This document shows, piece after piece, positions 51,957-62,555 of a stretch of 64,000 nt of DNA. The stretch's first letter is position 1. Every line of letters begins with the position of its first letter. A program made the position numbers and the translations under genes. Under the pieces are notes generated by a model, which saw nothing but the letters and a program-made list of their open reading frames with translations, did no database searches and had not been told where the DNA came from. Location: the NCBI GenBank assembly GCA_030444405.1, contig JARFPM010000002.1, positions 1 through 64,000 of the forward strand. Reading direction: 5' to 3'. This DNA comes from Nitrospira sp. (GTDB taxonomy: Bacteria > Nitrospirota > Nitrospiria > Nitrospirales > Nitrospiraceae).

Positions 51957-52832
51957 ATGCCCCGTCGGGGATCGTTCGTCTATGGAAGTCTGTTCCTTCT
52001 TATCGGCTTTACTGCCGTTGCGATCGCCGGTGACCCTCCCGACCCAGAAACGGCCATTCGTCAAATGGTCCGGGCCAATGCGGAAAAAGACCTTCCAACG
52101 CTTTCTCGCCTCATGGCCCACGACGCCGATATCGTCAGTTACTCGGTGGGTGGTCGCAAATACGTCGGCTGGCCAGAGTTTGAACGAGAAATGCGTGAAG
52201 AATTTGTCAATACTCAGAAGATTGAGATCCCGATTACTGAGCTCAAAGTCTGGACGAAGGGTGATTTGGCCTGGTTTACGATGGAGCTCGACTATACTCG
52301 CTACGTCGGCGAAGGATCCGGAGTGAAGCGGACGGTACTTCCCTTAAGAGAAACCGGTGTTCTCGAACGCCGTGCTGGGCGTTGGCAACTGTTGTCGTGG
52401 CACGAATCGTTCCGATCGGCTCAGCTTGGAGGGCCGCTTGCTTCGCCGTCAGCGGCAGCAGGATCGCAAAAGCTCGTCAGCAATGCTGCCGCCGCAATGC
52501 CAGATGTCAGCGGGGAATGGGATATTCTCGAAGTCGAGGACGAAAAACGCTACAAGGCGACGTTCGACAAGAATGGGAACGGCCCCTACACGCAACAGGG
52601 CGGACGGTTTATCACAACAAGAATTGAGAACCGACTATGGCAAGGCACCTGGCACCAGCCAGGCAACGATCGCGAGGGCGGGTTTGAGGTTCTCCTCTCG
52701 GAAGACGGTACGCAGGCAAAGGGAATCTGGTGGTACACACGAGTCGATACGAGAAAAAATATTCCGCCGAAGGAACACGGCGGCACCTACCACTGGAAGA
52801 AAGTGACACCATCACCGGCCAGCGCCCAATGA
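51957..52832 (+). CDS. Exported protein with an NTF2-like N-terminal domain
   Basis: The 291-residue product has a signal peptide (YGSLFLLIGFTAVAIAG). The N-terminal half is SnoaL/NTF2-like: AIRQMVRANAEKDLPTLSRL, GWPEFEREMREEF and GVLERRAGRWQLLSWHES. The C-terminal half is a different beta-rich domain (QGTWHQPGNDREGGFEVLLS). ATG 51957 has GGAGA at a good distance. It lies 80 bases before the PHM-like gene, and both are secreted. No reaction can be named. Confidence 0.72.
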   Translation: MPRRGSFVYGSLFLLIGFTAVAIAGDPPDPETAIRQMVRANAEKDLPTLSRLMAHDADIVSYSVGGRKYVGWPEFEREMREEFVNTQKIEIPITELKVWTKGDLAWFTMELDYTRYVGEGSGVKRTVLPLRETGVLERRAGRWQLLSWHESFRSAQLGGPLASPSAAAGSQKLVSNAAAAMPDVSGEWDILEVEDEKRYKATFDKNGNGPYTQQGGRFITTRIENRLWQGTWHQPGNDREGGFEVLLSEDGTQAKGIWWYTRVDTRKNIPPKEHGGTYHWKKVTPSPASAQ

Positions 52833-52912
52833 ACCAGCTTGTTTCTTCTCAGCCATACCAACAAATCGGAGTCCGGTCTCACATCACCGCTTCACTTCCT
52901 CTGGGAGGTCTT

Positions 52913-53917
52913 ATGCGCAGATCCCTCATTCTTTTCATCTCTCTCTTCTTCATGATCTCATCAGCCTACGCTGATGGAGGCCATGATCATCATGCCATCC
53001 CCACACTGAAAAAGCAGGTGGGCTCTAAGATCACCTACGGAGAGAACACGGCGACCCTGACATTCGGTCCTATCGACCTTCCGACCGGCCACGGTGAGGG
53101 CGATATGGGCGATTCCATGCCGCGGTTCTACTTCCAGTTGCCGGAAGACAAGTATTTGGTCGGTTTCAAGTCGGCCCTTTCTACGGTTGACGGGAAGGAA
53201 TTGCCGAGAAACTACTTGCACCATATTTTAATGATCAATAACAGCCAGCCCAGCATATCCTGCCCTGGAGAGCCGCTCTTCTTTGGAGGGGCCGGACTGG
53301 AAATGGCTGAGACCCAATTTCCCGATGGGTACGGTGTTAAACTCGCCAAAGATGATAAGCTCATGACGGTCGTCGCCTTCTATCATGGTGCCCCTCCCAC
53401 GAAAAATGTCATCGCAACCTTCACGATGTATTTCGCGCCGAAGGCTAAGCCGATCAAAGCAATGAACATCTATCAGGTAGGGGTCAACATCGTCTGTTTC
53501 ACTAAGTTCGGAGATCGTCCTGCAGATCAGACTGACGAAGGAATTGAAATCCGACATGGGGTCCAAGTTCACACAGCACCGCTCAAGTTCGGAGCAGACG
53601 GTTGCGTCAAATTTGCCTATCCTCATGGTCATGATGAATTACTGATGATCGCGTTGGAAAACAAGACCAAGAAACAGACCCTCCTCAGAACTGTGCCGGA
53701 TGTTGAGCGAGATGGAACCCTTCGTGAATTCTTACCCCACCAAGTCTATAGAGACGGCCAAGGATTCCCCATCTCCAAGGAGGATGACTATGAAATGGTG
53801 ATGGTGCACCATCACCCTCTCCAAAAAACCGAACTCCAGCATGGCATGGGCAATTACTTGCTGTACATGACTCCGGGGGCCTGCCCAGAGCAAGGCAAGA
53901 CCGCCGCGGCTTATTGA
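52913..53917 (+). CDS. Secreted PHM-like copper type II monooxygenase candidate
   Basis: The 334-residue product has a signal peptide (LILFISLFFMISSAYA) and then the His-rich start DGGHDHH. Candidate copper ligands come in the order known from peptidylglycine alpha-hydroxylating monooxygenase: His103-His104 (YLHHILMINN), His158 (VVAFYHGAP), His238-x-His240 (YPHGHDE) and Met312 (LQHGMGNYLL). The PHM order is HH, H, HxH, M with similar spacing. It may hydroxylate a small molecule or peptide outside the cytoplasm. GGGAGG before ATG 52913 decides the start. Overall similarity to PHM is otherwise weak by eye, so this is an inference. Confidence 0.6.
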   Translation: MRRSLILFISLFFMISSAYADGGHDHHAIPTLKKQVGSKITYGENTATLTFGPIDLPTGHGEGDMGDSMPRFYFQLPEDKYLVGFKSALSTVDGKELPRNYLHHILMINNSQPSISCPGEPLFFGGAGLEMAETQFPDGYGVKLAKDDKLMTVVAFYHGAPPTKNVIATFTMYFAPKAKPIKAMNIYQVGVNIVCFTKFGDRPADQTDEGIEIRHGVQVHTAPLKFGADGCVKFAYPHGHDELLMIALENKTKKQTLLRTVPDVERDGTLREFLPHQVYRDGQGFPISKEDDYEMVMVHHHPLQKTELQHGMGNYLLYMTPGACPEQGKTAAAY

Positions 53918-54214: not shown

Positions 54215-57200
54215 ATGCCGCAGAGTGAGCCAGTCACCATCCTCCTCGTCAATGCAATCGCCGAAGAAATCAAACTGGTTACGCTCAACTTCCGACGATT
54301 CTTTCCAAACTGCCGAGTCGAAGCCGTCTACACCGTAGAGGAAGCGCTTCAGTGGGGGCATCGGGCATCGTGGCACCTCATTTTAGTCGATGAGGAGTTG
54401 CTCCCGCAGCTCGCCGCGCCTGTCTTCTCAGAACTGAAGCAGCTTGCACCCCATGCCACGCTCGTGCTGCAGACGGGTCATAGCGAGTCCACCGCCGCCT
54501 TGGATGCTCTTCAGGCCGGGGCGGATTTTGTCCTCTACAAGAAGTCGCCCAGTTTTCTCACCGAACTGGTGTTGTACACAAAAGGCGCGCTCGAAACAGG
54601 CGCCATCCGCATGACACTCAAACAGACGCAGGATCGCCACGCCCGTCTCATTGATATGCTCAGCGATGGATTATACGAACTCGATGCGGAAGGACGATTC
54701 ATGCATCTGAGCCCGCTCGCCGCTGAAATGCTGGGCTACACGCAGGACGAGTTAATCGGCACCCCCTACTCTGCCCTCGTGCCTCTGGATCAACAGGATC
54801 GCGCTCGTCATCGTTTCAACGACCGCAGAACAGGGACGCGAGCGGCTCAACGGACAGAAATCGATCTCATCCGCAAACCATCCACCGACAAACGAGTCCA
54901 CGCCCGAGTGAGGGTCGAGCTCAGCGCGAGAGGGCTGTACGATTTTAATCGCCGGTATGTCGGAACGCTGGGTTTGTTGCGCGATCTATCCCGACACCGC
55001 CAGCAAACGAAGACAATTGCTCAGCTGGAACATCAACTTCGTGAATCCGATCGACTTCTCGCCATGGCACAACGCTTTTCAACCTTATCGAAAAGTCTGC
55101 ATGCCCCCCATAACGCGATGTACGCCCAATCCCAACTCCTGCTCAAAACCATCCACGACGCCCACCTGATCGAACAAGTAGATTCATTGGCAACGTACGC
55201 CGCTCAAGCCGCCCATCTGGGGAAAGAACTCGTCCAGACCACGACGGAAATCGTCCTCCGCCGAGACACCATCAACGACATCATCGAGTCCGTCCTGGCC
55301 GCCGCTCAACCTCCCCTTGCGAACACCGATTGGATTGAACGGGCGTATGGACGGGATCTTCCGCCTTTCACCGGAAACCTCGACTCCATGATGAACCTCC
55401 TGCGCATTCTCCTCTCACATGCCCGACGCTATGTGGCCGCTGTAGGCCCCCTCCATCGCTTACGAGTCAGTACTAGGGCAATCACCCAAGACGGAGCCTC
55501 CCTAGACCAAGAGACATCCTTGCTTCCACAAACAACGGCCGCCGAATTCGAGATTCACATCCAAGAGACAAACCTCCTCTCCCCGGCTCAGGAACCGCCC
55601 TTGCAGACAACCGACGATCTCTTTGTGGCCTACGCGTTGATCAAGCGACTCGGAGGCCGTTGGGATTTTCTGGCCCCCGTCGGCGGCTTTCTGTCGATCA
55701 AGGTGTGGATTCCGGTGGAACAACCTGCTGTGCTGGACAGTCGCGCTGTGCCGGTGACCCCACTCGTTTCTTCGACAGGCGGCGCGGTCGAACAGACTAC
55801 CGAGTCGATTCTTCAGACTACGGCGCATCCCTTACCGACCGGACCCCTTCCCTCCGTCCAATCAACGGAGCCTTTGCCTGACCGCCGCAGACATATTCGG
55901 GCGACCGTCGACCTACCAGCGCGCGTTACAATCGGCGATGCGCCGCAGGAAGGTGTCATGATTGATCTGAGTCTCAGCGGAGCCACTTTGGAGGTCGAAG
56001 GTGTGCTCCCGTCATTTGAACAACAGCCCGTCTACCTGCTCCTTAAGACAGCCCTCAGCATCTTGGAACTGGATGCCACCGCGCATGACCGAGGAGAAAC
56101 TCCCCGACGGGCCGGCATCGAACGGCGAACCTCCCGTCTTGCACTCGAGTTCACCGCACTCAACGAGAGCCAGCAGAAGATCCTCGCGTCGTTTATTGAG
56201 GCCGCACGAGTACATGCATCTGCCATAACAGTCGAAGCTCAGTTTCCGCCGCTCGATAAGACAGGTGAATTTGTAGTGCGAGGCACAGACTACCGCGAGA
56301 CCGTGAGATTTCGAGTTGCGCTGCCGGTCCGCATTGAAACTTCTAAAGCAGCGGGCGGAAGTCTGTTGGGCATTGCCGTCAACTTCAGCCGAGGCGGTGT
56401 ATGCGTGCAAACAGAGCCGTTCCTGCCAATGATCGATGAGGTAGTCGTGCTTCATTTCTCCTCGATCGACGTCCATGATCAGTCCAGGGCACAGAAGCCG
56501 GAAGCGCCCGAAGTGATTCTGACCGGCCGCGTTGTGCATCTTGCTCCCGATCCCACCGTTCCATCCAGGCTAACACCGGGTCTATCACAGCCTGGACAGC
56601 GCATCGGCATCCGTTTTTCCCACCTGACGCCGTTCGCGGAACGGCAAGTCAACCGCCTGCTTGGGCAACACATCGGCTCCTCCAAAGACTTTGCGGATCC
56701 AGACGGCCGGCCCTTAATCATGAGCGACAGATGGGAATGCCGGAATATGCACGGCCAGGCTATTGCGGTGACGGCCGATCATGCTCGCCATCTAATCTCA
56801 TCCGACACGCCGATCATCATCGTCATTCCCGGATTCGGATCGACTCAAACCGACTACGTATCGCTCTCATTTTACCTGGCTGCCAACCATTTGCGCGTGC
56901 TTCGCTATGACCACTCGAACCATGTCGGCCAAAGCGATGGCAGTATGCTGCAGGTCACGTTGCGCAACATGCAGGCTGATCTCCAGAGCATCCTGGACTT
57001 TGTTCACACTACATGGACCACCGCTCCCGTAGCTCTCCTCGCCGAAGACATTGCGGCGCGAGTGGCGGTGAAAGTCATGGCTCGGAGCACATCGGCCGAT
57101 AAGCTTTTCTTGTTGAATCCTGTTCTCGACATAGAAACCGCTCTTTCTACCATCGATCGCCCCAACGTCATTGAAGCCTACCGGCAAGGTCATCGGCGGG

Positions 57201-58408
57201 GCATTGCTAATCTCTGGGGACTCAATGTCAACTTCGACCAGTTTGTCGGCGATGCGATCACGGGAGACTATGTCGACTTGGCCTCGTCAAGAGCTGACTT
57301 CGCTCAAGTGGCCACTCCGCCTGTCATCCTGGTCTCTGCCAGAAGAATCCGTCCCCTTGAACCCATGTTCGGCCCTCAATATCAGTCCCTCAACACCATG
57401 AGACTCGCTCCAACTGTTGTATCGCTGCCGGCCGACGTGTCCGGAGAATCCGGCGCCTACGACGAGCGCCGTACCGCCGCCTTCAAGACGATCTTGAAAC
57501 TGATCTCAACTTCCCTGATCGGCAATTCTTCCTCGGCTCAGGTCCGCGAACCGAAACTACGTGATGTTTCTCAGCAACGGCAGTTGGAGCATGAGCGTAT
57601 CCGCATTCGCTGCCATGTCTCACAGGCCACACGCATCGCCTTGTGGGGAGCTCACTTGGCCCATCTACCTCAACTCGAAACCTTGCCGGACTATTCTGCT
57701 TTGACGAGTGAACTGTATCGCCGGCTCCTTCCGCTTGAACCAGGCATGACCGTCCTCGATATCGGCTGCGGCCAAAGAAACTTCGTCCGTCTCATGCTGA
57801 CCAATCAAGCCTATCGGTCGGCGCATCAAAGAGGACGGATGGCCGTTCCTCTCCGCTATGTGGGGTTGGACCAGTCGCTTGAATCGCTTAGACTTGCAAA
57901 ACTGCAGACCCTTACATTCGCTAAAGAACTGCCCGGCACACTCACGGCTGCCGTCCCAACCGCCCAGTCCGTAGCGACAAGCTGGGTGCACACGGACTGG
58001 AATGTACCTCTTCCTTTTATCGATGGATCGATGGAGCGCATTCTCTGCCATCTTTCGCTCTCCTTTACTTCTTCTCCCCTTCATTGTCTAAGGCAATTGC
58101 TCAGAATCTTGCATCCGGATGGGACGGCCGTCTTGACCTGTTTTCAACCGCACACCGATCTCTCAACGCTGTTTCGCCGTTACGTGCGCGCAGCAGACCA
58201 TGATGAATTCGGCACTCCGGCCCAAATCGTCCTTCACTATCTCGGCCGCCTGCGCGAAGCCATTCGGCATGGTTTATTGCATAACTATGAACGCGATGAG
58301 TTCGCCGGTCTGCTGGCTCGTGCCGGTGCGGGCCCAATCCAGTTTTTCTCCGTTCTCGACAACCAACTTCTACTCGCCCTTGTTCGGAAGACCAAATCCG
58401 CTGGATGA
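54215..58408 (+). CDS. Giant signalling fusion: REC-PAS-kinase remnant-PilZ-PilZ-LuxD-like-methyltransferase
   Basis: The 1397-residue protein has seven parts. A receiver-like domain (1-125) keeps Asp59 and Lys109/110 but lacks the acidic pair. A PAS domain follows (138-260), then a remnant of dimerisation and ATPase regions (265-500, ending AYALIKRLGGRWDFL) without N, G1 or His motifs. PilZ 1 has R558xxxR562 and D584xSxxG589; PilZ 2 has R694xxxR698 and N723xSxxG728, so both can bind c-di-GMP. Residues 862-1100 resemble LuxD-type acyl thioesterase (VIPGFGSTQTDY, RYDHSNHVGQSDGS), but AEDIAARV replaces the serine elbow. A methyltransferase (1165-1395, VLDIGCGQ) ends the chain. It may couple c-di-GMP to methylation. 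No signal peptide is seen. Confidence 0.85.
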   Translation: MPQSEPVTILLVNAIAEEIKLVTLNFRRFFPNCRVEAVYTVEEALQWGHRASWHLILVDEELLPQLAAPVFSELKQLAPHATLVLQTGHSESTAALDALQAGADFVLYKKSPSFLTELVLYTKGALETGAIRMTLKQTQDRHARLIDMLSDGLYELDAEGRFMHLSPLAAEMLGYTQDELIGTPYSALVPLDQQDRARHRFNDRRTGTRAAQRTEIDLIRKPSTDKRVHARVRVELSARGLYDFNRRYVGTLGLLRDLSRHRQQTKTIAQLEHQLRESDRLLAMAQRFSTLSKSLHAPHNAMYAQSQLLLKTIHDAHLIEQVDSLATYAAQAAHLGKELVQTTTEIVLRRDTINDIIESVLAAAQPPLANTDWIERAYGRDLPPFTGNLDSMMNLLRILLSHARRYVAAVGPLHRLRVSTRAITQDGASLDQETSLLPQTTAAEFEIHIQETNLLSPAQEPPLQTTDDLFVAYALIKRLGGRWDFLAPVGGFLSIKVWIPVEQPAVLDSRAVPVTPLVSSTGGAVEQTTESILQTTAHPLPTGPLPSVQSTEPLPDRRRHIRATVDLPARVTIGDAPQEGVMIDLSLSGATLEVEGVLPSFEQQPVYLLLKTALSILELDATAHDRGETPRRAGIERRTSRLALEFTALNESQQKILASFIEAARVHASAITVEAQFPPLDKTGEFVVRGTDYRETVRFRVALPVRIETSKAAGGSLLGIAVNFSRGGVCVQTEPFLPMIDEVVVLHFSSIDVHDQSRAQKPEAPEVILTGRVVHLAPDPTVPSRLTPGLSQPGQRIGIRFSHLTPFAERQVNRLLGQHIGSSKDFADPDGRPLIMSDRWECRNMHGQAIAVTADHARHLISSDTPIIIVIPGFGSTQTDYVSLSFYLAANHLRVLRYDHSNHVGQSDGSMLQVTLRNMQADLQSILDFVHTTWTTAPVALLAEDIAARVAVKVMARSTSADKLFLLNPVLDIETALSTIDRPNVIEAYRQGHRRGIANLWGLNVNFDQFVGDAITGDYVDLASSRADFAQVATPPVILVSARRIRPLEPMFGPQYQSLNTMRLAPTVVSLPADVSGESGAYDERRTAAFKTILKLISTSLIGNSSSAQVREPKLRDVSQQRQLEHERIRIRCHVSQATRIALWGAHLAHLPQLETLPDYSALTSELYRRLLPLEPGMTVLDIGCGQRNFVRLMLTNQAYRSAHQRGRMAVPLRYVGLDQSLESLRLAKLQTLTFAKELPGTLTAAVPTAQSVATSWVHTDWNVPLPFIDGSMERILCHLSLSFTSSPLHCLRQLLRILHPDGTAVLTCFQPHTDLSTLFRRYVRAADHDEFGTPAQIVLHYLGRLREAIRHGLLHNYERDEFAGLLARAGAGPIQFFSVLDNQLLLALVRKTKSAG

Positions 58409-58508: not shown

Positions 58509-59780
58509 ATGACGGATCGCACGGCGCCGCCATCGGACCCTTGTCAATCAGGCACGGCATCACTGCAACGACTCACGCAGTTTGCACGAGATATGGGGCA
58601 CCCGACAAGCCTCCCAGTCATCGCGGAGCGCATTCTTTCCGGCCTCTCTGATGTATCCCGGCACTCTCAAGGGGTTCTTTATCTGCTTGAACGCGAACGT
58701 TTCTGCCCGGTGGTTTCACAAGCGGAGGGGTCTTCGATAGCAGCGTTTCCCGTCCTTCCCCTTGATCACCCCCTTGTTCAACAACTGGCTCACCACCAAG
58801 ACATCCTCGACTCGCCTGCGTTGACCGATTCCCTATGCAGGGGGTCCTTGGACAATGCCACGGAGGCCCAACTCGCCACTCATCCCGTCAACTTGGCCAT
58901 CCCGCTGCTGAATCGAGGAAGGCTGATCGCCTTCGTATTGCTGCAATCCCGGATAGAAACCACCGTCATTTCCTCCCATACCCTGGAACTCCTGGCTGCT
59001 ATGGCCCAGAATGCCGCCAACGCGCTTGACTCTTTCCTGCTTTATGAGGACCTCCGGCAGTCCCAAGCTCTCATGCGGCGAACTGATCGATTGCGTTCTC
59101 TGGAAACCATTGCCGGAGGTTTTGCTCATGAAATCAGAAATCCCTTGACGTCGATCAAAACCTTCATCCAGCTGGCTCCGGAACGTAAGAATGACAGTCA
59201 ATTTATCGGTGAATTCAGCCGAATTGTGCTCGATGACGTCAATCGGATTGAACGGTTGATTCAGGAGATTCTCGACTACGCTCGATACATGGAACCTCAA
59301 CTGACCGATGAGGATCCGAATGAAATCGTCTCGTCGTGCCTGTACTTCATCCAAGTAAAAGCCGACAGCCGAGGGATCAAGATTGAAAAAGATTTGGCGG
59401 TTGAGCTTCCTCGTGGCATGTTAGATCGGCAACAAATGAAACAGGTCCTTTTAAACCTGCTCCTGAATGCGATGGATGCCATCGGCGAAAAAACCGGAAC
59501 TATCCGAGTACGGACCACGAGGCTTCAAAAAGCGGACGGTGAGATAGGCACTCAGATAGAGATCGAAGATACGGGGCACGGCATCTCACCCGAAAACCTT
59601 GAACACATCTTTGACCCGTTTTTTACCACCAAACATGCGAGCGCCGTTAACGAAGGAACGGGGTTGGGACTGACCATCGCTCATCAGATCATTCAGGAGC
59701 ATCGAGGAGAGATTCAAGTTCAGAGTACGGAAGGGATCGGAACCACCTTCCGCATCAATCTTCCCTCCCACCGCTGTTAG
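58509..59780 (+). CDS. GAF-domain sensor histidine kinase (NtrB-like)
   Basis: The 423-residue kinase has an N-terminal GAF-like sensory region (about 20-175), a HisKA domain with His207 (FAHEIRNPLTSIK) and a complete HATPase domain: NLLLNAMDAIG (N box), EIEDTGHGIS (G1), FDPFFTTK (F box) and GTGLGLTIAHQI (G2). No transmembrane segment is present, so it senses in the cytoplasm. It starts 100 bases after the fusion gene and ends 16 bases before the NtrC-type regulator, its likely target. Confidence 0.93.
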   Translation: MTDRTAPPSDPCQSGTASLQRLTQFARDMGHPTSLPVIAERILSGLSDVSRHSQGVLYLLERERFCPVVSQAEGSSIAAFPVLPLDHPLVQQLAHHQDILDSPALTDSLCRGSLDNATEAQLATHPVNLAIPLLNRGRLIAFVLLQSRIETTVISSHTLELLAAMAQNAANALDSFLLYEDLRQSQALMRRTDRLRSLETIAGGFAHEIRNPLTSIKTFIQLAPERKNDSQFIGEFSRIVLDDVNRIERLIQEILDYARYMEPQLTDEDPNEIVSSCLYFIQVKADSRGIKIEKDLAVELPRGMLDRQQMKQVLLNLLLNAMDAIGEKTGTIRVRTTRLQKADGEIGTQIEIEDTGHGISPENLEHIFDPFFTTKHASAVNEGTGLGLTIAHQIIQEHRGEIQVQSTEGIGTTFRINLPSHRC

Positions 59781-59796: not shown

Positions 59797-61227
59797 GTGG
59801 AAAGCTCGGTTGTTAGAAAACGAGTTCTGTTGATCGATGATGATCCCCGAGTCCGTGCCTCTCTCAAGATGGTTCTCGAACCCATCTATGACATTCTCCA
59901 AGCTAGTGATGGACATGAGGGACTCGCTGTGTTTCGGAAGGATGAGCCCGACCTTATCCTCCTCGACGTCATTCTCCCGGGAACCGACGGCCTCGCAGTG
60001 CTCCAAATGCTCCGTATGGAGAGCAAGACCCCCCCTGTCATCATGCTCACAGGCACCAAATCCGTAAAAACAGCCGTCGACGCCATGAAGCTCGGCGCCG
60101 CTGACTATCTCTCAAAACCGTTCGATGTCGATGAGCTGCGTATCGTCATTGATCGAGTCCTGAACTCCTCCGAATTGGAGCGAGAGGTCAAGCAACTGCG
60201 GGCTCAGGTCGTTCAGCGCTATGCCTTCCATAATCTAATCGGGAAAAGCCAGGGCATGCAGGAGATCTACTCAAAAATCGAGCAGGTCGCCGACAGTCGT
60301 ACCACCGTGCTCATTACGGGAGAAAGTGGCACGGGAAAGGAATTGGTAGCGAGGGCCTTGCACTATAACAGTGCCCGGCGCGAACGCCCCTTCATCGCAC
60401 TGAACTGCGCAGCTTTGCCTGAAACGCTGATTGAAAGTGAACTCTTCGGCCACGAAAAGGGTTCGTTCACGGATGCGACAGCCCGACGCGTCGGACAGTT
60501 CGAGTTGGCGAACACCGGGACGCTGTTCCTGGATGAAATCGGCGACTTAAGTCCGGTTACACAAGCTAAGCTCCTGCGTGTCATCCAAGAGCGCGAATTT
60601 ACGAGAATCGGTGGAGTTCAGCCGATCAAGGTCGATGTCCGCATTGTGGCGGCGACGAACAAGAATCTTGACGACCTTGTTCGAAAGGGGCAGTTCCGAG
60701 AAGACCTCTACTACCGCATCAACGTCATTGCGCTCTTTCTCCCTCCACTCCGTGAACGGGGTGAGGACATTCCTCTCCTGGCCAAACATTTCCTCGAGAA
60801 ACGGCTGGAAGAGGAGCGACGCCCACGGATCGAATTCGAAAAAGACGCACTGGAGCTTCTAACTCGTTATTCTTGGCCGGGCAATGTGCGCGAGCTGGAA
60901 AACTTCGTCGAGCAAGCGTTCATCTGGTCCCAACATGCTGCGCAAATCACTTCGGAGCATTTGCCGACCCTGATCAAGAGCGATTCCCGCTCAACGTCGC
61001 TTCGAGACGATACCCTTGCCGGTCGTATGTCGCTTGAAAAAGCAGTGATGGAGTTTGAACGGGATATCATCCTTGATGCGTTGAAACGAACCAATTACGT
61101 ACAAACCCATGCTGCGAACCTACTCGGAATCAGCCGCAGGATGCTAAAATACCGAATGGACACCCTCCGCATCGGTCGTCCTGACAATTCTACTATCCAA
61201 GAGCCCGACTCACCCATGCAAGAATGA
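59797..61227 (+). CDS. NtrC-type sigma-54 response regulator
   Basis: The 476-residue protein has a complete receiver (Asp14-16, phospho-Asp57, Lys107), a AAA+ domain (Walker A GESGTGKE near residue 175) and a C-terminal Fis-type HTH ([16 protein letters not shown]). The sigma-54 contact loop is GSFTDA (222-227), differing from GAFTGA at two places. A GTG start with AAGGAG at proper distance was used. It should be phosphorylated by the kinase 16 bases upstream. Its targets are unknown. Confidence 0.93.
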
Positions 61228-61427: not shown

Positions 61428-62555
61428 ATGGACATGGCTTCTTGTCAGGCCGGAACACAACCGACAGTCCTCGTGATTGATGATGAAGCGGGGCCCCGCG
61501 ATGCCCTTAAAACGATACTTCGCACCTTCTGCAACGTTCGATCTGCAGAAAACGCCAAGACAGCTCTTGATGTCCTCAATCAGGACCCTATTGACCTGAT
61601 CACTCTCGATCAAAAGCTCCCAGATCGTCACGGACTTGATCTTCTCAGAGACATAAAGCACCGTCACCCCGACGTGGAGGTGATTATCGTCACGGGATAC
61701 GGGAGCCTGAAGTCCGCCATGGAGGGTATTCGCCACGGAGCCGCTGGCTATCTGCTTAAGCCTTTCAACGTGAATGAGCTGACCACCCTCATCCAGCAGA
61801 CCATGGACAAGAAGCGCCGACTCGACTTTCTCCGCCACTCTCTCCGAACACTACCGGACCTTTGGGGCTCAGAAGAAGAGAGCGCACGAGCGTGGAACAA
61901 GGTTAAGACTGGATATGCTTCCCTCTCCATCAATGCACAAGGCGCTGTCGCTTCGCAGCAAGACGATATGAGCCTGCTTCCACTCTTGTCCGATATTCTG
62001 GAGGCCACGGACCGTCAATTACTCAATCATTCGAGCCGAGTGAGTTTCTATGCCACGTTGATGGCCAGCCGACTCAACCTTACCGCCTCCGAGCAAAAAT
62101 CATTGGCCCTTGGAGCCTTCTTGCATGATTTAGGGAAAACGAGCCTCCCATCGTATAGGTTTTCAGAAGACCAGGTTCTTCCGTCTGGGGAAGCATCCCT
62201 CTGTAGGGAACACTCCGACAGAGGCGCACGGATGATTGCGCCGCTGGGTTTACCGATTGAGGTGGGGCAAATCGTCGCATCCCACCACGAGCGATGGGAT
62301 GGGCAAGGCTACCCTCGCGGACTCCGAGGCACGGATATTCCGTTTCTGGCTCGCATTGTCGGCATCGCCCAAACGTTTGATCATTTGACCGCCGACGTAC
62401 CTGGGCGCGTTGCCCTGCCGCTGGATGCCGCAACCCGCCAAATTTCGCTTCAATCTGAGACGCATTTCGACCCGCTGTTGCTGGAATTCTTCATTCAGGT
62501 CGTGAAAGACTCGCCCGTCTCGACTCCCGCCATGGACATCGCTCCCGCCGCTTGA
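61428..62555 (+). CDS. Response regulator with HD-GYP phosphodiesterase domain
   Basis: The 375-residue protein joins a receiver (phospho-Asp61, Lys111) to an HD-GYP domain. The HD pair is His233-Asp234 (FLHDLGKT), and HHERWDGQGYP (286-296) carries two further metal His and the GYP signature. It should hydrolyse c-di-GMP, controlled by phosphorylation. The linker from 128 to 180 is helical. With the double-PilZ protein encoded three genes earlier, it forms a local c-di-GMP circuit. A 200-base AT-rich spacer separates it from the NtrC-type gene, so it may have its own promoter. Confidence 0.93.
   Translation: MDMASCQAGTQPTVLVIDDEAGPRDALKTILRTFCNVRSAENAKTALDVLNQDPIDLITLDQKLPDRHGLDLLRDIKHRHPDVEVIIVTGYGSLKSAMEGIRHGAAGYLLKPFNVNELTTLIQQTMDKKRRLDFLRHSLRTLPDLWGSEEESARAWNKVKTGYASLSINAQGAVASQQDDMSLLPLLSDILEATDRQLLNHSSRVSFYATLMASRLNLTASEQKSLALGAFLHDLGKTSLPSYRFSEDQVLPSGEASLCREHSDRGARMIAPLGLPIEVGQIVASHHERWDGQGYPRGLRGTDIPFLARIVGIAQTFDHLTADVPGRVALPLDAATRQISLQSETHFDPLLLEFFIQVVKDSPVSTPAMDIAPAA

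Follow-up and report, generated by a model that had tools for sequence, protein, structure and literature searches.

The locus described here raises the question of what becomes of an acyl-processing enzyme once its catalytic residues are gone. It lies in a 64,000-nucleotide stretch of Nitrospira sp. DNA (assembly GCA_030444405.1, contig JARFPM010000002.1, positions 1 to 64,000; hereafter the window), where a 1397-residue protein joins two PilZ domains, a domain resembling the bioluminescence thioesterase LuxD and a methyltransferase. An initial annotation, made from the sequence alone, had assigned residues 862-1100 (56798-57514) to the LuxD-like part and proposed that this part lacks its serine nucleophile and acts as a pseudo-enzyme, which by binding an acyl group or acyl carrier could pass a lipid signal to the attached methyltransferase. 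The open reading frame (ORF), residue numbers and coordinates are correct (Table 1). We find that the whole catalytic triad has been lost, and that the state of the triad among relatives in the phylum matches the type of histidine kinase encoded next to it.

A LuxD-family domain without a catalytic triad

The resemblance to LuxD holds for Pfam, for the NCBIfam LuxD model and for a family profile compared with the Protein Data Bank (PDB). The window domain scores 42.1 bits against Pfam PF02273 (Acyl_transf_2, the LuxD family; cut-off 20.3), which places it in that family. Against NCBIfam LuxD (NF052253) it reaches an E value of 3.4e-10, but its 39.7 bits stand against an equivalog cut-off of 420. 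The best PDB entry for the family profile, built from ten related domains, is the LuxD thioesterase 1THT (E value 4.8e-29), with the next hydrolase well behind. In this profile alignment, LuxD residues 114, 211 and 241, which we take to be the published catalytic triad, land on the three triad columns. Two LuxD-like motifs had been named in the initial annotation: RYDHSNHVGQSDG indeed matches LuxD RYDSLHHVGLSSG, while VIPGFGSTQTDY is only loosely LuxD-like. We rejected the window domain as a true LuxD, as it lacks the triad and its equivalog score is far below the cut-off.

At the nucleophile elbow, where LuxD reads AASLSARVA and an intact relative (L020) ATSLSARVA, the window reads AEDIAARVA. 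No serine is present, as had been claimed, and its position is taken by Asp945. Because the window aligns with L020 residue for residue from R897 to beyond the elbow, the elbow register is secure; the triad register rests on sequence profiles. The loss goes further than the initial annotation had recognized: the serine has given way to a fixed aspartate, and both the triad acid (P1047) and the triad histidine (G1077) are gone as well.

Across 95 distinct LuxD-methyltransferase domains taken from the phylum, the nucleophile position is Asp in 60, Ser in 30, Asn in three and Gly in two (L017/L042, a broken copy, was dropped from alignments, and L152 as a duplicate). Ser and Asn rows keep the remaining triad residues, with Asp at the acid position in 30/30 and 3/3 and His at the histidine position in 29/30 (a gap in the distant L133) and 3/3, respectively. 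Glu occupies the acid position in both Gly rows. Asp rows are mixed at both positions, mainly Pro, Ser and Ile at the first and mainly Gly at the second.

Two trees agree that the Asp rows form a single clade, supported at 97 by the Shimodaira-Hasegawa-like approximate likelihood ratio test (SH-aLRT) in a 94-row tree and at 100/98 in a 52-row tree. The Gly rows are its sister group (96 and 99/94), and the Asn rows join next, bringing all non-Ser rows together (96 in the larger tree; 93/94, not starred, in the smaller). Loss of the serine first, followed by the acid and the histidine, is the likely order of events. L133 (5998-8994), a distant relative from another family of the class, was left out of the trees and of the column-conservation counts; an acyl-CoA dehydrogenase gene lies on its 5′ side and, on its 3′ side, a multi-kinase protein without a seven-transmembrane (7TM) match.

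Orthologues with an intact triad had been named in advance as evidence that would speak against a pseudo-enzyme. None occurs within the clade, where Asp is found in 60/60; intact Ser-Asp-His triads belong to relatives from other genera, families and classes. Since the intact forms are found only outside the clade, and one of them (L078) shares the gene neighbourhood of the window, we read them as the ancestor-like form rather than as a refutation.

Retention of the decayed domain

Asp945 is among 17 fully invariant columns of 550 in the Asp clade, whose length is 14.2 changes per column. Of the columns fixed to at least 97% in this clade, it alone differs from the commonest residue of the 29 intact rows, with one further column tied. 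The ratio of nonsynonymous to synonymous substitution rates (dN/dS) for the domain is 0.05-0.51 in 18/18 close pairs, similar to that of the neighbouring domains in the chain. With the whole triad gone, the loss fixed in 60/60 clade members and purifying selection (dN/dS < 1) in every close pair, the proposal of a retained pseudo-enzyme is well supported. LuxD forms an acyl-ester on its own serine, according to passages of one published account (PMC8301110); because that serine is absent, such an ester is impossible in the window domain. The pocket of this domain may still bind an acyl group.

Conservation in the clade also bears on what the domain might still do. A hydrolase fold could be kept purely as a structural spacer that lets the fusion fold, holds PilZ and methyltransferase apart and binds nothing. 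The lost triad would fit a spacer, as would the loss of 19 of the 67 columns that are invariant in intact rows. So would a protein in L144 that runs REC-PAS-PilZ-methyltransferase without a LuxD domain, which is hence dispensable, and stretches like the invariant RYDxxHxGxS are common among alpha/beta hydrolases. However, a charged residue fixed in 60/60 where the nucleophile once stood, a switch unmatched in strength elsewhere, exceeds what a spacer needs, and D1008 and G996 are held more tightly in Asp rows (60/60 each) than in Ser rows (19/30 and 22/30). We regard the spacer as a doubtful, though not negligible, alternative.

Asp945 might instead be a new nucleophile. Haloalkane dehalogenases and epoxide hydrolases share this fold and use an Asp nucleophile, together with a required catalytic His and acid, and a Ser-to-Asp change at the elbow, here present in 60/60, yields just such a residue. 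No acid is retained at 1047, however, and the C-terminal half of the domain has no invariant or near-invariant His, even among 12 close orthologues, which makes an Asp-nucleophile hydrolase very improbable.

Kinase type matches the state of the LuxD domain

Across the loci compared, the next gene on the same strand usually encodes a related histidine kinase; the window protein, which carries its own methyltransferase, is linked to this kinase as well by gene neighbourhood. The adjoining kinase is soluble at all 49 Asp loci, with a kinase core that starts by residue 234 and at most one hydrophobic segment. At Ser loci it is a membrane kinase in 28/31, one of them (L084) fused in the same ORF. 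HisKA_7TM (PF16927) was found in nine of the ten Pfam-tested kinases beside or fused to an intact LuxD (L074, L084, L081, L078, L129, L115, L133, L139, L143 and L131), all except L133. Eleven genomes of one genus (g12) carry the two combinations side by side, a Ser form next to a membrane kinase and an Asp form next to a soluble one. In a kinase tree, from which L097 (cut) and the paired kinase of L133 were excluded, 50 soluble kinases form one clade (support 99). This match of kinase type to LuxD state is new here.

Elbow states of L035-L039, L043, L089, L090 and L132 were read separately, the elbow pattern having matched the wrong stretch. L144 and L145, where no elbow was seen, were counted in neither group; neither a kinase nor a ketosynthase accompanies the two Gly loci over the length covered. 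At L084 (4906-9903), a 1666-residue ORF fuses PilZ-PilZ-LuxD(intact)-methyltransferase to a 7TM-GAF-HisKA-HATPase kinase, so that the two neighbours are naturally joined. At L139 (7266-9443), the HATPase domain of the 7TM kinase is a poor match (23.9 bits, below the cut-off).

The kinase and regulator of the window could also belong to a two-component system of the PrsK/PrsR kind, controlling exopolysaccharide/PEP-CTERM genes, with the LuxD-methyltransferase protein as an accessory and no lipid signal. The kinase scores 121.8 bits against the PrsK model and the regulator 431.8 bits against the PEP-CTERM response regulator model, similarities that lie below the respective cut-offs of 300 and 502.6. 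AtoS/AtoC models score higher, however, and control of this kind leaves the pairing of intact LuxD or 3-oxoacyl-acyl-carrier-protein synthase III (KAS III; see below) with a membrane kinase unexplained. We therefore consider it unlikely.

Ketosynthases beside membrane kinases

Other acyl enzymes also occur beside membrane kinases. In L129 and L131, from another class, the gene order is FabF-like ketosynthase, LuxD-methyltransferase, 7TM kinase; in L129, these are followed by another kinase and by REC-HD-GYP. In L135, an Asn form that retains the acid and the histidine, REC-PAS-PilZ-LuxD(Asn)-methyltransferase is followed by PilZ fused to KAS III, a 7TM kinase, an NtrC-type regulator and REC-HD-GYP. 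The first protein of L144 is REC-PAS-PilZ-methyltransferase, without a LuxD match; after it come PilZ-KAS III, a kinase bearing two 7TM stretches, then an NtrC-type regulator and finally REC-HD-GYP.

PilZ-KAS III was present in 3/395 and 4/195 genomes in two overlapping draws. It lies directly 5′ of a membrane kinase in all six loci, five of these kinases having at least five hydrophobic segments and that of L144 two 7TM matches. The Cys, His and Asn motifs of the L135 KAS III look intact by eye. Together, these gene orders suggest that a membrane kinase accompanies a potentially active acyl enzyme, whether LuxD or KAS III, and a soluble kinase its absence. Such a pattern would be expected of a synthase-receptor pair, although co-occurrence is no proof of one.

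Architecture and distribution of the host protein

The REC domain at the front of the window protein is atypical: Asn replaces the first Asp of its acidic pair, a position that is Asn or Ser in 52/52 aspartate-clade proteins, and the phospho-acceptor Asp is retained in 51/52. The stretch between PAS and the first PilZ domain aligns with a histidine kinase whose motifs are gone; in the 18 of 52 rows inspected, the H-box His is replaced (LSKSL) and the ATP-lid motifs are degenerate. By alignment, RxxxR and the final Gly are intact in both PilZ domains of 52/52 aspartate-clade proteins. Within D/NxSxxG, the D/N position is kept in 45/52 (PilZ 1) and 52/52 (PilZ 2), and the Ser in 43/52 and 49/52. 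The pair thus carries the sequence motifs, RxxxR and D/NxSxxG, of a candidate receptor for cyclic diguanylate (c-di-GMP). In the methyltransferase, the third Gly of motif I is present in 30/30 Ser rows and 23/60 Asp rows.

Table 1. Positions of the features discussed, in window coordinates unless a locus is named
Feature	Position	Strand	Basis
Whole ORF, 1397 aa: REC - PAS - histidine-kinase-like - PilZ - PilZ - LuxD-like - methyltransferase	54215..58408	+	ORF call, Pfam
REC domain, atypical	54236..54574	+	PF00072, 24.9 bits, below 30.2 cut-off
PAS domain	54614..55000	+	PF00989, 35.4 bits
Histidine-kinase-like remnant	55001..55729	+	alignment; limits by eye
PilZ 1	55871..56209	+	Pfam and alignment
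PilZ 2	56282..56713	+	Pfam and alignment
LuxD-like alpha/beta-hydrolase domain without catalytic triad, residues 846-1105	56750..57529	+	Pfam, NCBIfam, profile
Asp945, nucleophile-elbow position	57047..57049	+	domain alignment
Pro1047, triad-acid position	57353..57355	+	domain alignment
Gly1077, triad-His position	57443..57445	+	domain alignment
Class I S-adenosylmethionine-dependent methyltransferase domain, motif I LDIGCGQRN	57695..58399	+	Pfam
Soluble histidine kinase (HisKA-HATPase), no transmembrane part	58509..59780	+	domain search, locus comparison
Sigma-54-dependent (NtrC-type) response regulator	59797..61227	+	domain search
REC - HD-GYP type c-di-GMP phosphodiesterase-like regulator	61428..62555	+	domain search
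PilZ-KAS III loci	L135:7161-8756, L144:5936-7519, L176-L179		PilZ Pfam-tested in L135 and L144 only

A DNA-level search found the LuxD-like domain in single copy in its own genome. Named relatives, 65-83% identical across the domain (the broken copy, 56%), are Nitrospira metagenome bins. The gene is patchy within the genus, since the first search for relatives gave a strong match in 15 of 34 same-genus genomes. A tblastn search against plasmids returned no record with 80% query coverage, the places listed being methyltransferase stretches, and viral contigs gave one weak match, confined to the methyltransferase part. In one Nitrospira bin (L042 and L017), the gene is broken by frame changes and stops, through either decay or assembly error. 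Directly 5′ of the window gene lies a conserved 395-residue ORF (52730-53917), whose family is found in 35/61 loci compared; at the thresholds applied, it matches nothing in Pfam or NCBIfam. In L078 (3008-4357), the intact LuxD gene has a separate REC-PAS-PilZ gene on its 5′ side, and fusion of such a gene may have given the window protein its front end.

A synthase that may have become a cytosolic regulator

We propose that the window protein descends from an active LuxD-type enzyme fused to a methyltransferase, and that this synthase, now decayed, is retained as a regulator in the cytosol; we put the probability of this reading at about 0.5. The ancestor would have been an active LuxD-type acyl thioesterase or transferase. 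In the intact relatives, for which we model a synthase-plus-receptor mechanism on Phc and Rpf, LuxD would free an acyl chain. This chain, perhaps capped by the fused methyltransferase, would be sensed by the 7TM kinase. Intact operons would then encode a c-di-GMP-linked synthase and a receptor, usually a 7TM kinase, of a fatty-acyl-derived and perhaps methyl-ester signal.

In the window lineage, the nucleophile Ser changed to Asp, with loss of the acid, the histidine and the membrane sensor of the kinase, in a protein with a REC-PAS-kinase-like front end. We suggest that c-di-GMP binds the two PilZ domains inside the cell. The domain derived from LuxD would serve for binding or docking rather than catalysis, perhaps with a role for Asp945, and would relay the c-di-GMP state to the methyltransferase, to the adjoining soluble kinase, or to both. 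The soluble kinase would then drive the NtrC-type regulator.

Several observations weigh against this proposal. The match of kinase type to LuxD state is one evolutionary event seen many times, because the Asp clade arose once; the membrane-to-soluble switch likewise occurs once on the tree, and 49 against 28 loci are not 77 independent cases. Of the 31 Ser loci, three are without a kinase: two of these reach a contig end, and L080 has none within the 2.4 kb available. The Asn form L135 retains a 7TM kinase despite its loss of Ser, and it also has KAS III. Ketosynthases were seen near LuxD-methyltransferase or methyltransferase genes only in L129, L131, L135 and L144, with none near the intact genes of f3 or g12. 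The third motif-I Gly is absent from 37/60 Asp-clade rows and is Arg in the window, so that the methyltransferase itself may be weakened. AlphaFold models, made with 12 close sequences each, reached a mean pLDDT (predicted local distance difference test) of 32.4 for hydrolase plus methyltransferase and 36.3 for the hydrolase alone. Finally, a search of the open-access literature, with most subscription journals outside its scope, found nothing on the PilZ/LuxD protein, its product, ligand or binding.

More broadly, and only tentatively, Nitrospirota may harbour lipid-signal operons of a kind not yet described. Their PilZ-linked acyl enzyme, either LuxD-methyltransferase or PilZ-KAS III as its substitute, would make an acyl signal that the adjacent 7TM kinase reads; in the Nitrospira lineage, the synthase, with its fixed Ser-to-Asp change, would have become an intracellular c-di-GMP-linked receptor or co-regulator, and the kinase would have shed its membrane receptor. 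If so, a phylum with key nitrifiers would own a family of fatty-acyl signalling tied to c-di-GMP. The window would also offer a testable case of an enzyme turned sensor, for which extant relatives supply the intact, the half-decayed and the fully decayed stage.

Comparison with known systems

With LuxD (1THT), the window domain shares its sequence-profile family, the RYD..HHVG..SG motif and the elbow position. It differs in lacking the Ser-Asp-His triad and in being fused to PilZ and methyltransferase domains, and no luciferase or luxC/luxE genes are among the annotated neighbours in the window.

We know of no LuxD or PilZ parts in the Phc system of Ralstonia. As described in passages of one source, its operon phcBSRQ encodes the methyltransferase PhcB and the kinase PhcS, and its signal is a fatty-acid methyl ester (PMC8578825). 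The window resembles it in gene arrangement, in that genes for a methyltransferase, a histidine kinase and receiver proteins share an operon.

In the Rpf system of diffusible signal factor (DSF), RpfG is a REC-HD-GYP protein and RpfF a crotonase homologue, not an alpha/beta hydrolase. Excerpts of a published account give RpfF, with acyl-ACP (acyl carrier protein) thioesterase activity, as signal synthase, alongside RpfC and RpfG (PMC4542539). So far as these excerpts go, the likeness is that one cluster contains a thioesterase-type enzyme, a kinase and a REC-HD-GYP protein; the window operon differs in its additional NtrC-type regulator and PilZ domains. An acyl-processing enzyme beside a membrane kinase, the arrangement expected of a Phc- or Rpf-like lipid-signalling operon, is found in intact relatives (28/31 Ser loci and 6/6 PilZ-KAS III loci). 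The window has neither an active acyl enzyme nor a membrane sensor kinase, given Asp945 and a kinase without a transmembrane part.

The gibberellin receptor GID1 is a non-catalytic alpha/beta-hydrolase receptor that keeps its Ser and loses its His, whereas the window has lost all three triad residues and replaced Ser by Asp. The two are alike in the reuse of a hydrolase fold for binding after loss of the triad, a binding that for the window is a proposal.

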